A stretch of DNA of 64,000 bases from Rhizobium sp. CIAT894 (GTDB taxonomy: Bacteria; Pseudomonadota; Alphaproteobacteria; Rhizobiales; Rhizobiaceae): NCBI RefSeq assembly GCF_000172795.2, contig NZ_CP020947.1, positions 3,748,501-3,812,500 of the forward strand, written 5' to 3'. This document shows positions 13,329 to 48,329 of this stretch, piece by piece. Within the stretch, counting starts at the first letter, position 1. Each line of letters starts with the position of its first letter. The notes beneath the pieces were generated by a model. That model did not search any database. It was not told the origin of the DNA and saw nothing but the letters and a program-made list of their open reading frames with translations. The position numbers were made by a program, and so were the translations under genes.

Positions 13329-15197
13329 ATGGAACGACGGCTGAGCGCTATTCTCGCTGCGGATGTCGTTGGCTACAGCCGACTGATGGGCATCGATGAG
13401 TCCGGCACGCTGCAGGCGCTGAACCGCCATCGCTGCGAGCTGGTCGACATTCGCATCTCGGACTACAAGGGCCGGATCTTCAAACTCACCGGCGATGGCA
13501 TTCTTGCCGAATTCCAGAGCGTGGTGAATGCGGTTGCCTGCGCCGCCGAAATCCAGCGCAGCATGGCGGCTCGCAACGAGAGCGTGCCCAAGGACGAGCG
13601 CGTCGAATTCCGCATCGGCATCAATCTCGGCGACGTCGTGGTCGAAAACGGCGATATCTTCGGAGATGGCGTCAATCTTGCCGCCAGACTCGAGCGCATC
13701 GCCTCGCCGGGCGGCATCGCCGTGTCGGCCTCGGTACGCGATCAGGTCGGCTCGCGTCTCAATCTCGGCTTCGATTTTATCGGCGAACATACGCTGAAGA
13801 ACATCAGGCAGCCCGTACAGGTCTATACCGTCACCCTGACGCCGCCCTCCTCGGTGAAATTGGTCGCCCAGAACCGCAATACCTGCTTCATCGCGGTGCT
13901 GCCCTTCACCAATATGAGCGGCGATGCCGATCAGGACTATTTCTCCGACGGGATCACCGAAGACATCATCACCGATCTCTCGAAGATCTCCAGCCTGCAC
14001 GTCGTGCCGCGCAATACGATCTTCACCTACAAGGGCATATCGGTGAAGGTGAAGCGGCTCGCCCAGGAACTCGGCGTGCGCTACGTGCTCGAGGGAAGCG
14101 TGCGCATCTTCGGCAATCGCGTGCGCATTTCCGGCCAGCTGATCGACACCGCCAATGGCGATCATCTCTGGGCCGAGCGTTACGATCGCGACCTCACCGA
14201 CATCTTCGCTATCCAGGACGAGATCACTCATGCGATCGTCGGCCAGCTGAAGGTGCGCCTGCTGCCGGAAGAAAAGAAGGCGATCGCCAGTGAGCCGACC
14301 GCCAATGTCGAGGCCTATACCTATTATCTACGCGGCCGCCAGCTCTCCCACACCTGGACCAAATCCTATCTCCAGCTCGCAAGGCGCATGTTCTGCAAGG
14401 CGGTCGAACTCGACCCCGACTATGCCCGCGCCTATGCCGGTATTGCCGATTGCGACGCAGCGATCCGCGACTGGGCGCCTGACGACGTACCGCTGCGGCG
14501 CATCCTCGACATGAGCGCCCGCGCACTCGCGCTTGATCCCGACCTTCCCGAGGCCCACGCCTCCCATGGTCTCGCCCTGCATCAGAGTGGTTATGACGAC
14601 AGGGCGGCGGCGGCCTTCGAACGGGCCTTGGCGCTCGACCCGAACCTCTTCGAGGCGAATTTCCATTATGCCCGCTTCTTCTTCATGCACGGCAACTTTG
14701 CCGAATCGGTTCAATACTTCACCCGCGCCGCGGAGATCCGCCCCGACGATTATGTCTCGCCGATCCATTTGATGGCCGCCTACCATTCGCTCGGCCGGGC
14801 GGTGGACAGGGAAAACTGGGCCCGCCTCGGCCTGCTGCGCGCCGAGCGCGCGCTGAATCTCAATCCGGAGAATTCAGGCCCGGCCCATCGCGGCGCTTTG
14901 GCGCTTGCCCATCTCGGTGATGTCAAAAGGGCCAGAGACTGGGCGGCGCGAGCGATCGCCATCGATCCCAACGACATCGTCGCGCAGTATAATCTCGCCT
15001 GCGTCTATTCGGTCCTCGGCGACGTCGACCAGGCGATCGACCTGCTGCAGAAGCTGCTGCCGCACAGCTCCGTCTACCATATCAAATGGTTCGACAATGA
15101 TTCCGATCTCGATAACATCCGCGGCGATCGCCGCTTCCAGCAGCTGCTCGCCGCCGCGATGACGCAGCGCGAACGGATCGAGAGGACCGCCAGCTGA
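13329..15197 (+). CDS. Class III adenylate/guanylate cyclase with TolB-like and TPR domains
   Basis: 622 residues; ATG at 13329 follows GGGAGGGG. Residues 1-170 are a cyclase catalytic domain, with metal-binding Asp in AILAADVVGYSRLM and in FKLTGDGILAEF (preceded by the base-binding Lys), and RIGINLGDVV with GDGVNLAARLE completing the site. Next comes a TolB-N-terminal-like domain (FIAVLPFTNMSGDADQDYFS to ISGQLIDTANGDHLWAERYD), then about six tetratricopeptide repeats to the end. This layout is common and multiplied in rhizobia. There is no membrane segment, so it is cytosolic and makes cAMP in response to an unknown protein or ligand signal. Monocistronic. Confidence 0.9.
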   Translation: MERRLSAILAADVVGYSRLMGIDESGTLQALNRHRCELVDIRISDYKGRIFKLTGDGILAEFQSVVNAVACAAEIQRSMAARNESVPKDERVEFRIGINLGDVVVENGDIFGDGVNLAARLERIASPGGIAVSASVRDQVGSRLNLGFDFIGEHTLKNIRQPVQVYTVTLTPPSSVKLVAQNRNTCFIAVLPFTNMSGDADQDYFSDGITEDIITDLSKISSLHVVPRNTIFTYKGISVKVKRLAQELGVRYVLEGSVRIFGNRVRISGQLIDTANGDHLWAERYDRDLTDIFAIQDEITHAIVGQLKVRLLPEEKKAIASEPTANVEAYTYYLRGRQLSHTWTKSYLQLARRMFCKAVELDPDYARAYAGIADCDAAIRDWAPDDVPLRRILDMSARALALDPDLPEAHASHGLALHQSGYDDRAAAAFERALALDPNLFEANFHYARFFFMHGNFAESVQYFTRAAEIRPDDYVSPIHLMAAYHSLGRAVDRENWARLGLLRAERALNLNPENSGPAHRGALALAHLGDVKRARDWAARAIAIDPNDIVAQYNLACVYSVLGDVDQAIDLLQKLLPHSSVYHIKWFDNDSDLDNIRGDRRFQQLLAAAMTQRERIERTAS

Positions 15198-43289: not shown

Positions 43290-44306
43290 ATGTGGGGTCG
43301 GCGTTCATTACTGCAGGCGCTCGCCATTGCGTTTTGCATCGCCGGGCCGGCGCCCGCCGCCGAGCCGGTCGGCCAGGCTGTCGTTGTCAAGACAGAAGTG
43401 AGCGGACAAGACGGTCCAATCGAAGTCAACACCAGCGTGCACCGCGACGAGCGCATCCGGACATCGCAATCCGGGCTCGGCCAGTTCCTGTTCCGCGACG
43501 GCACCAAACTCGCGGTCGGCTGGGGCTCCTCGGTCGTCATCGACAAATATGTCTTCGATGATTCACAATCGGTCAAGAAACTCACCATCAGAGCGGCGAA
43601 GGGAACTTTCCGCTGGGTGAGCGGCAATTCCAACTCCTCGGCCTACCAGATCCTGACGCCCGCCGGCACGATCGGCGTGCGCGGCACCGCTTTCGATTTC
43701 TATGTCGGCCCGGATGGCACGACCGCCGTTGTCCTGTTGAACGGCGCGGCCCGGTTTTGCGGTCCGGGCGGCTGCCGCCAGTTGCAGCAGCGCTGCGATT
43801 GCGTGGTGGCCAAGCCGAACGGCAATATGTCGGCAGCACGCCGGGTCGATCCCAGCGTTCTCGATACGCTCGGAAATCGCCGCGCGCTCCCCTTCCTCTC
43901 CGGCAACCAGCGGCTTGCAGGCGGCATCGGCATGCTCGGCGGCTGCAATATGGCCTCCGTTGCGCCGGACCGAAAAGACAGAACGCGGCCTCCGCCGGCG
44001 GTTGCGCCTGCCCCGCAAAGACAGGATCCGCCACAGAGACAGGTCGAGCCGCAAAAGGAGCGACCGAACAAGCCCGAAAAGCCACACCATGACAGGCCAC
44101 ACCATGACGGGCCGCATCATGACAAACCGGATAGGCCTGACAAGCACGAGGGCCATGGCCGGCATGACGATGACGGCAAGCCGGGAAATCACGGCGAGGA
44201 TCATCGTGACCACGACCGCGACCATCATGGACACCGCGATCACGATCGTGATCATGACAACGATCGCAACCACGACAGAGGCCGGAACTTCCATCACGGC
44301 CGCTGA
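43290..44306 (+). CDS. FecR-domain exported protein with His/Asp-rich tail
   Basis: 338 residues. Signal peptide MWGRRSLLQALAIAFCIAGP followed by APAAEP. Residues about 27-150 form a FecR-type domain (IRTSQSGLGQFLFRDGTKLA, LTPAGTIGVRGTAFDFYVGP), seen in periplasmic ligand-sensing or secreted-scaffold proteins. A Cys-rich stretch follows (FCGPGGCRQLQQRCDC). The last 75 or so residues are an extreme His/Asp/Arg low-complexity tail (repeats like HHDRPHHDGPHHDKP and HRDHDRDHHGHRDHDRDHD), a likely metal-binding or charged spacer. It converges with a CHASE2 cyclase gene (6-bp gap), a pairing with which it may work. Confidence 0.8.
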   Translation: MWGRRSLLQALAIAFCIAGPAPAAEPVGQAVVVKTEVSGQDGPIEVNTSVHRDERIRTSQSGLGQFLFRDGTKLAVGWGSSVVIDKYVFDDSQSVKKLTIRAAKGTFRWVSGNSNSSAYQILTPAGTIGVRGTAFDFYVGPDGTTAVVLLNGAARFCGPGGCRQLQQRCDCVVAKPNGNMSAARRVDPSVLDTLGNRRALPFLSGNQRLAGGIGMLGGCNMASVAPDRKDRTRPPPAVAPAPQRQDPPQRQVEPQKERPNKPEKPHHDRPHHDGPHHDKPDRPDKHEGHGRHDDDGKPGNHGEDHRDHDRDHHGHRDHDRDHDNDRNHDRGRNFHHGR

Positions 44307-46739: not shown

Positions 46740-48329
46740 GTGATTTCCGAAACCGCCGCGCGTCGGAGCGGCTACTGGCTGATTGTCGTGGTGCTGGCAA
46801 TGCTCGCGGGGCTGCCGCTTGCCGTCTGGCTCGATATCAGCGATCTCTCGGGCAACACCCTGCGGCATCAGGCCCGCGACATGAGCTCGCTGATCTCAAG
46901 CATCCGCTCCTATTATTCCGCCAATGTCGTGGGCCGCGTTCTGGCTGCCCATGGCGGCGGCGCGACCGAAGGCACCGTCGTCTCTCACAACTACGCCAAT
47001 ATATCGGGCGCCATCCCGCTGCCGGCAACACTTTCCCTGGAGCTCGGCGACGTCATCAAGGAGCAGCAGGCTAATATCACCTACCGTTTCGTCTCCGACC
47101 TGCCGTTCAAGAGCCGCGCATCCCACGACCTCGACCAATTCGAGACGAAAGCGCTTGCCGCCTTGCGCGCCGATCCGCAGCAGACGCTGACCGACCTCAC
47201 CCGTGTCGGATTGACCGATACTTTGCGCTTCATCACCCCCGTGGTCATGGGCCAAGCCTGCGTTGCCTGCCACAACAGCCATCCCGAAAGCCCGAAGACC
47301 GATTGGAAGGTGGGCGACGTGCGCGGCATTCAGGAGGTCATCATCCGGCAGCCCTACGCCGGCAACGTCTTCGCCTTCAAATACCTGCTCTGCTATTTTC
47401 TGTTCGTCGCCGTTATCGGCATCAGCTTCATTCTGCTCCAGCGCCAGCAGGCGCGCGCCATCCACAGCGCCAACCACGAGCTGGAAACGGCGAACGAGTT
47501 CCTCGCCAGCGTTTCCCTGAAGATTTCGCGTTATCTCTCGCCGCAGATCTATAAAAGCATCTTCTCCGGGCAGAAGGACGTCGTCGTCCATACCGAACGC
47601 AAGCGCCTGACGATCTTCTTCTCCGACATCAAGGATTTCACCGCGACGACCGAGCGCCTGCAGCCGGAAGCCCTCACGGAGATGCTCAACGAATATCTGA
47701 CGGAGATGTCGAACATCGCTCTGGACCATGGCGGCACGGTGGACAAGTTCATCGGCGACGCGATGCTGGTCTTTTTCGGCGACCCGGAAACCAGGGGTCC
47801 GGAAGAGGACGCGAAAGCCTGCCTTCGCATGGCCGTCGACATGCAGCGCCGTCTCGGCGAACTCAAGGACAGATGGCGCAGAAACGGCACCGAAGAGCCT
47901 TTCGTCGTCCGCATGGGCATCAACAGCGGCTATTGCAACGTCGGCAATTTCGGCAGCAACGACCGCATGGACTATACGATCATCGGGGCGGAGGCCAATC
48001 TTGCGGCCCGGCTGCAATCGATCGCCCAGGGCGGTGAAATCGTCATCAGCTACGAAACCTACGCGCTGGTGAATGAAATCGTCGATGCCCATTCCCTGCC
48101 GCCGATCACGATGAAGGGCATACAGCGCGAGATCGTGCCCTATGCGGTGGATGGGCTGACGCTCGGTGCCGATCATAAGAGCCGCGTCCTCAGCGAGCAC
48201 CTCGCGGGTCTCGACCTGCATCTGGATATGAGCCGGCTGGAGCCTGCCGATCGCCTCCGGGTCAGGAGCGCCCTCAAGGAGGCGATTGCCGCGCTTGACG
48301 AAGCCGCGCCCGAGGTCGCCGGATCGTGA
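46740..48329 (+). CDS. Adenylate cyclase with periplasmic haem-c (DUF3365/Tll0287-like) sensor
   Basis: 529 residues; GTG start at 46740 with GAGGG upstream. Transmembrane helix at about 12-32, then a periplasmic domain (33-212) containing a c-type haem motif CVACH (Cys174, Cys177, His178) in MGQACVACHNSHPES and ending IQEVIIRQP, the pattern of DUF3365/Tll0287-like haem sensors. Second helix at about 214-233, short coiled linker, then a class III cyclase with FFSDIKDFTATTERL (metal Asp), DKFIGDAMLVFFGDPE, RMGINSGYCNVGNFG and YTIIGAEANLAARLQS. Probably converts a redox or gas signal into cAMP. The sensor call rests on CxxCH and layout. Confidence 0.88.
   Translation: MISETAARRSGYWLIVVVLAMLAGLPLAVWLDISDLSGNTLRHQARDMSSLISSIRSYYSANVVGRVLAAHGGGATEGTVVSHNYANISGAIPLPATLSLELGDVIKEQQANITYRFVSDLPFKSRASHDLDQFETKALAALRADPQQTLTDLTRVGLTDTLRFITPVVMGQACVACHNSHPESPKTDWKVGDVRGIQEVIIRQPYAGNVFAFKYLLCYFLFVAVIGISFILLQRQQARAIHSANHELETANEFLASVSLKISRYLSPQIYKSIFSGQKDVVVHTERKRLTIFFSDIKDFTATTERLQPEALTEMLNEYLTEMSNIALDHGGTVDKFIGDAMLVFFGDPETRGPEEDAKACLRMAVDMQRRLGELKDRWRRNGTEEPFVVRMGINSGYCNVGNFGSNDRMDYTIIGAEANLAARLQSIAQGGEIVISYETYALVNEIVDAHSLPPITMKGIQREIVPYAVDGLTLGADHKSRVLSEHLAGLDLHLDMSRLEPADRLRVRSALKEAIAALDEAAPEVAGS

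Follow-up and report, generated by a model that had tools for sequence, protein, structure and literature searches.

A predicted c-type haem Cache adenylate cyclase of Rhizobium sp. CIAT894 and its possible control by periplasmic nitric oxide

RESULTS

Domain organization and membrane topology

The window analysed here is a 64 000-nucleotide stretch of the Rhizobium sp. CIAT894 genome (contig NZ_CP020947.1). An open reading frame on its forward strand (46740..48329) starts with GTG and encodes 529 residues without internal stops; we describe its product as an sCache_heme (Tll0287-like/DUF3365) class III adenylate cyclase. Pfam assigns residues 40–202 to the Tll0287-like family PF11845, formerly DUF3365 (E = 7.6e-20; 72.2 bits against a cut-off of 24.1), and residues 285–469 to Guanylate_cyc, PF00211 (E = 3e-25; 89.3 bits against a cut-off of 21.9). 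The Pfam listing for the protein contains no HAMP domain, and no NCBIfam family scored above its cut-off, one cyclase match falling below it. Kyte–Doolittle hydropathy, taken over 19 residues, rose above 1.6 in only two stretches, with peaks near residues 13–31 (TM1; 46776..46832, +) and 215–233 (TM2; 47382..47438, +). Since these lie on either side of the Tll0287-like domain, hydropathy predicts that this domain is extracytoplasmic and the cyclase cytoplasmic.

The putative periplasmic haem-binding sCache domain was modelled as residues 35–212 (46842..47375, +) and contains the CVACH c-haem attachment motif at residues 174–178, with Cys174, Cys177 and His178 (47259..47273, +). TM2 is followed by a signalling helix and conserved linker (residues 234–283; 47439..47588, +), recognized by its conservation and helical in a low-confidence model. 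The segment KISRYLSPQIYKSIFSG in this linker, between TM2 and the catalytic domain, is almost invariant across the family in a 121-protein alignment, as would be expected if the linker passes on a signal.

The class III cyclase catalytic domain (residues 285–469; 47592..48146, +) carries D296, K336, D340, T413, N420 and R424, all of which are also present in 20/20 cyclase loci, the window's own included. In the 121-protein alignment, where some rows are partial, the rows with a letter at the position keep D296 in 120/121, K336 and D340 each in 118/118, and T413, N420 and R424 each in 112/113. We take D296/D340 to be the metal-binding Asp pair, K336/T413 the substrate pair and N420/R424 the transition-state pair; Thr413 in place of Asp is presumably the mark of class IIIb. 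As read from the sequence, the set fits a class IIIb adenylate cyclase. The closest solved cyclase domain is that of CyaB (PDB 3R5G, E = 6.6e-65), which we take to be the Pseudomonas aeruginosa protein; the CyaB input domain, presumably a MASE2 membrane domain, differs from that of the window protein. A first-pass annotation of this DNA had proposed a DUF3365/Tll0287-like domain bounded by two membrane helices and joined to an intact class III cyclase, and had numbered the motif cysteines 174 and 177. The PF11845 score, the hydropathy profile, the six catalytic residues and the position of CVACH bear out each of these points.

The c-haem motif and the Cache fold

The composition of the window protein itself predicts about 0.0012 C..CH motifs by chance. 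In a homologue search with residues 1–260 as query, 2720 of the 8000 candidates scored reached E ≤ 1e-10. The motif is present in 120/120 of the best 120 of these 2720 matches, among which the named closest homologues are from Rhizobium, and when these were aligned with the window protein, Cys174, Cys177 and His178 were kept in 121/121. It was also kept in 60/60 fetched PF11845 loci; these were the best-scoring ones, 30 from a search of Rhizobiaceae and 30 from a search of the phylum, with reading frames that ran off the fetched stretch in 13 of the 60. Set against an expectation of 0.0012, the 120/120 and 60/60 counts exclude a chance origin of the motif. PF11845 occurs in 64 of 297 sampled Rhizobiaceae genomes, always above cut-off, in 124 of 398 sampled genomes of the phylum (119 above cut-off) and in none of 14 control genomes; the window's own genome has a single match. 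A cyclase lay within the fetched stretch in 20/30 Rhizobiaceae loci and 0/30 phylum loci, a count biased towards high scores.

A preprint of February 2026 (PMC12889525), in the part of its text available, defines DUF3365 as 'sCache_heme' with c-type haem as the defining feature. The same text gives CXXCH as conserved at 99% in one data set and 99.4% in another, locates this motif in a short helix that separates strands 3 and 4, and describes c-type haem in two family members that were expressed. In our domain model, strands 3 and 4 (125–135 and 160–171, domain numbering) enclose the motif helix (138–146), in agreement with the family position given in that text, and the best structural match, by Foldseek and by a second aligner, is Tll0287 (PDB 5B82). 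The window protein thus has a PF11845 score above cut-off, the family position of the CXXCH helix and a Cache fold nearest Tll0287. The second Foldseek match, 3B42 (E = 7.6e-4), had weak geometry (TM-score to the query 0.36; rmsd 13.6–17.3) and was not among the 50 matches listed by the second structural aligner. A phmmer search of the PDB with the periplasmic domain alone gave three rows, two FtsB and one antibody, and no haem protein, so the link to Tll0287 rests on Pfam and the structure model. The full-length model was poor (pLDDT 69.7, pTM 0.38), has no bearing on signal transfer and was left out of the domain arrangement. Two CcmE haem-c maturation genes are present in the genome. Because haem has been found in other members of the family (PMC12889525, available part), covalent attachment of a c-type haem to the window protein is very likely.

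The haem pocket lacks a third cysteine

The periplasmic part of the window protein has only two cysteines, both in CXXCH, and the same holds for 20/20 cyclase loci. The axial Cys of the Tll0287-type subgroup (Cluster 1, redox-like) is absent from all of them. The cyclase branch should therefore be unable to use cysteine ligation from its own domain, and this absence is independent of how Pro95 and Cys are aligned. In a MAFFT alignment, the axial column of the stand-alone Tll0287-type proteins is occupied by Pro95 (47022..47024, +) in 20/20 cyclase loci, by Cys in 7/14 short PF11845 loci (non-cyclase, <350 aa), and by a gap in the other 7/14 short loci and in 26/26 other loci of at least 350 aa. 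HMMER aligned an invariant Cys of the short loci L005, L006, L011, L048, L051, L054 and L055 with the Tll0287 Cys. Four short PF11845 proteins of other Rhizobiaceae (L022, L024, L027 and L029) have CL(S/T)CH and, in the alignment, no axial-column Cys, so short length does not always mean Cys/His ligation.

A profile comparison of the cyclase and stand-alone domains (probability 94.7) covered the C-terminal half only, with the Cys/Pro position outside; because it stopped short, the placing of Pro95 opposite the axial Cys rests on the single MAFFT alignment. Comparison with six loci of at least 350 aa (probability 96.9) set Pro95 opposite a Phe of L002. Proline at the axial column was considered as a rule for signalling members and dropped, given the gaps in 26 loci and the Phe of L002.

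The cyclase branch has conserved sensor-domain residues of its own: Y59, Y85, a GxxPxPATLS segment, N179 and W189. Met170 is invariant in 121/121 aligned proteins and 20/20 cyclase loci; in 40 other PF11845 loci its column holds Met in 7, and the other residues found there include Ile (10), Thr (7) and Val (6). All 121 aligned proteins also keep His129 and His181; in the cyclase loci the counts are 18/20 and 19/20, respectively. These conserved residues and the invariant Met170 make a non-Cys sixth ligand possible in the cyclase branch.

Gene neighbourhood and genome setting

The haem cyclase gene is flanked by a divergent cyclase gene (44313 to about 46484, −; start inferred) and by rpsU (48507). 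The divergent gene encodes a CHASE2 membrane class III cyclase and is in head-to-head orientation to the haem cyclase gene, the inferred starts being about 255 bases apart; a gene for a FecR-domain protein (43290–44306, +) is convergent at its far end. A third cyclase of the window is indicated by another PF00211 match at about 13347–13829 (+; contig 3761847–3762329), in an open frame of 630 aa. The genome has 25 PF00211 matches.

The oxidoreductase, FecR, CHASE2 cyclase, rpsU, TPR and HWE kinase neighbours are kept in 3/3 same-genus loci (L094–L096). At L097, where the haem cyclase is 77.5% identical, rpsU, TPR and the oxidoreductase are kept and the CHASE2 cyclase and FecR were not found; at six further loci (L098–L103, stretches of 8.0–12.0 kb) none of the tested neighbours is kept, except for one weak FecR match in L103. 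The CHASE2 cyclase was rejected as an obligate partner, since it is kept in L094–L096 but was not found in L097. That neither L097 nor the other six loci keep it indicates that the haem cyclase is independent of the second cyclase.

One NirK scored above cut-off in the genome, with NnrS adjoining, and FixP- and CcoG-type genes lie on the same replicon; NirK, NnrS, a Crp-family regulator, FixP, CcoG, a copper ATPase and HemN fall within 38 kb (C6:165000–203000; L104, L105). The cytochrome-oxidase family PF00115 has four matches in the genome: two pass the CtaD cut-off, a third resembles CtaD but scores below that cut-off, and the fourth lies next to FixP; no nitric oxide reductase (NorB) was identified among these four, which does not prove its absence. 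Three nifH loci scored above cut-off, with identical scores, and NodA gave one near-full-length match and one short one. The nifH loci and NodA lie on one replicon (C4:323402–422750). Three nifH copies are typical of bean-nodulating Rhizobium etli relatives. Together, NodA and the three nifH loci make a nodule setting for the haem cyclase possible.

DISCUSSION

Relation to known haem sensors and cyclases

The first-pass annotation regarded this protein as a little-studied sensory design. However, the available part of PMC12889525 already covers the sensor family, its haem and the fusion to a cyclase, Guanylate_cyc being listed with the most frequent fusions in the legend of its Figure 2, so the design is of a known kind. 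PMC7726332 and PMC9230427 each mention DUF3365 once. A literature search, judged by titles and the starts of abstracts, found no experimental study of a DUF3365-cyclase, and the behaviour of the cyclase members appears to be what remains new.

As far as the available text of PMC12889525 goes, the sCache_heme family matches the window protein in PF11845, the CXXCH helix, an extracytoplasmic location, a signalling output linked through a TM helix and the Guanylate_cyc fusion. Tll0287 of Thermosynechococcus (5B82), the model for the stand-alone type, has Cys/His axial ligation (PMC12889525, available part), whereas the window protein has no third periplasmic Cys. It has instead the fusion to a signalling module that marks Cluster 2, the NO-sensing signalling subgroup, and lacks the axial Cys. 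The P. azotoformans signalling member, of Cluster 2 type, likewise lacks the axial Cys; as described in the available text of PMC12889525, it has HAMP and no cyclase, whereas the window protein is HAMP-free and has its own conserved sensor-domain residues. GSU0582 and GSU0935 of Geobacter (GSU0935 = 3B42) also have a periplasmic c-haem sensor domain; their output is chemotaxis, that of the window protein a cyclase. CyaC of Sinorhizobium meliloti is, like the window protein, a rhizobial membrane cyclase, and is haem-controlled (PMC10463352, available part). It differs in having six TM helices and two haem b and in responding to quinone, whereas the window protein has a c-haem motif outside the membrane and, with two hydrophobic stretches, does not have the six TM helices of a CyaC-type diheme-b protein.

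Nitric oxide as the candidate signal

Several properties of family members are given in the available part of PMC12889525. Tight binding of NO (koff 6.25e-4 per s) is described for the P. azotoformans signalling member, which is low-spin and six-coordinate with fast autoxidation. The haem is Cys/His-ligated in Tll0287 and in the P. putida stand-alone protein, the stand-alone type looks redox-like, and the NO off-rate of the P. putida protein is fast. Because the window protein, like the NO-binding signalling member, has no third periplasmic Cys, we prefer NO sensing, and we put the probability that the protein is a periplasmic NO sensor controlling cAMP at about one half. This reading builds on features predicted from sequence and model (domain, motif, topology, catalytic set and the lack of a third periplasmic cysteine) and takes its ligand from other family members. 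Against it, the available text of PMC12889525 has one signalling-type member tested, and that protein is HAMP-bearing and cyclase-free. NirK, NnrS and the CcmE genes of the genome, and the lack of an identified nitric oxide reductase among its four PF00115 matches, agree with the NO reading, but a nitrite reductase encoded elsewhere gives no link between NO and the haem cyclase gene itself.

On the NO reading, the protein would be an inner-membrane adenylate cyclase, dimeric by analogy with family members, with one covalent c-type haem on the CVACH motif of each periplasmic sCache domain and His178 as the proximal ligand. The distal face, because it lacks a cysteine ligand, would probably hold water or a weak ligand and be accessible to NO. 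Binding of NO to the ferrous haem would shift the Cache dimer. Carried by TM2, the signalling helix and the linker, with no HAMP domain involved, this shift would reach the class IIIb catalytic domains and alter cAMP synthesis. The change in cAMP may be in either direction, and downstream regulators would presumably be of the Crp/Clr type.

Alternative signals

The haem might instead serve as a periplasmic redox sensor, the oxidation state of its iron, set by periplasmic or respiratory donors, determining cAMP, with a non-Cys sixth ligand such as Met170 or a His. The invariance of Met170 throughout the aligned proteins and cyclase loci is in keeping with this. Three literature observations point the same way: the stand-alone members are redox-like, the tested signalling member is itself low-spin, six-coordinate and fast-autoxidising (both PMC12889525, available part), and S. 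meliloti CyaC, another rhizobial cyclase, is redox-regulated (PMC10463352, available part). However, the window protein has no counterpart of the cysteine that ligates the haem in the redox-like type. Met170 precedes Cys174 by just four positions, and its column holds Met in only 7/40 other PF11845 loci, so that it may serve in packing, and neither His129 nor His181 is universal in the cyclase loci. We consider redox control rather doubtful and place it behind NO.

Class IIIb cyclases can respond to bicarbonate, and Thr413 is presumably of class IIIb type. The haem could be structural or a relic, with the cyclase controlled mainly by another input, such as bicarbonate acting on the catalytic domain or a small molecule in the Cache pocket; small-molecule binding is usual for Cache domains (PMC12889525, available part). 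The strictness of C..CH, in 120/120 of the best 120 of 2720 homologues and in 60/60 loci, argues against this, and we regard it as improbable.

Haem-based oxygen sensors are common, and the genome is, by NodA and nifH, that of a nodulating diazotroph. Sensing of oxygen (or CO) as a report on nodule or soil oxygen is nevertheless the least likely reading, since in the available text of PMC12889525 both tested proteins and the C59A variant failed to form a stable complex with oxygen, and all three produced superoxide. With a tested signalling member that binds NO, the earlier suggestion that the protein reports respiration or nodule oxygen is not our best guess.

Implications of periplasmic NO sensing

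If NO control of the cyclase is true, nodule bacteria would directly detect NO on the outer side of the cytoplasmic membrane and respond by way of cAMP. With a single gene, a clear CXXCH mutant and a simple cAMP readout, the sensing output of an sCache_heme protein is directly testable here. More tentatively, the family may be an outward-facing bacterial counterpart of the NO-regulated guanylate cyclase, with a distal side of the c-type haem unlike that of both tested sCache_heme types. It would then give root-nodule bacteria a one-protein path from periplasmic NO, whether made by the plant or by NirK, to cAMP.
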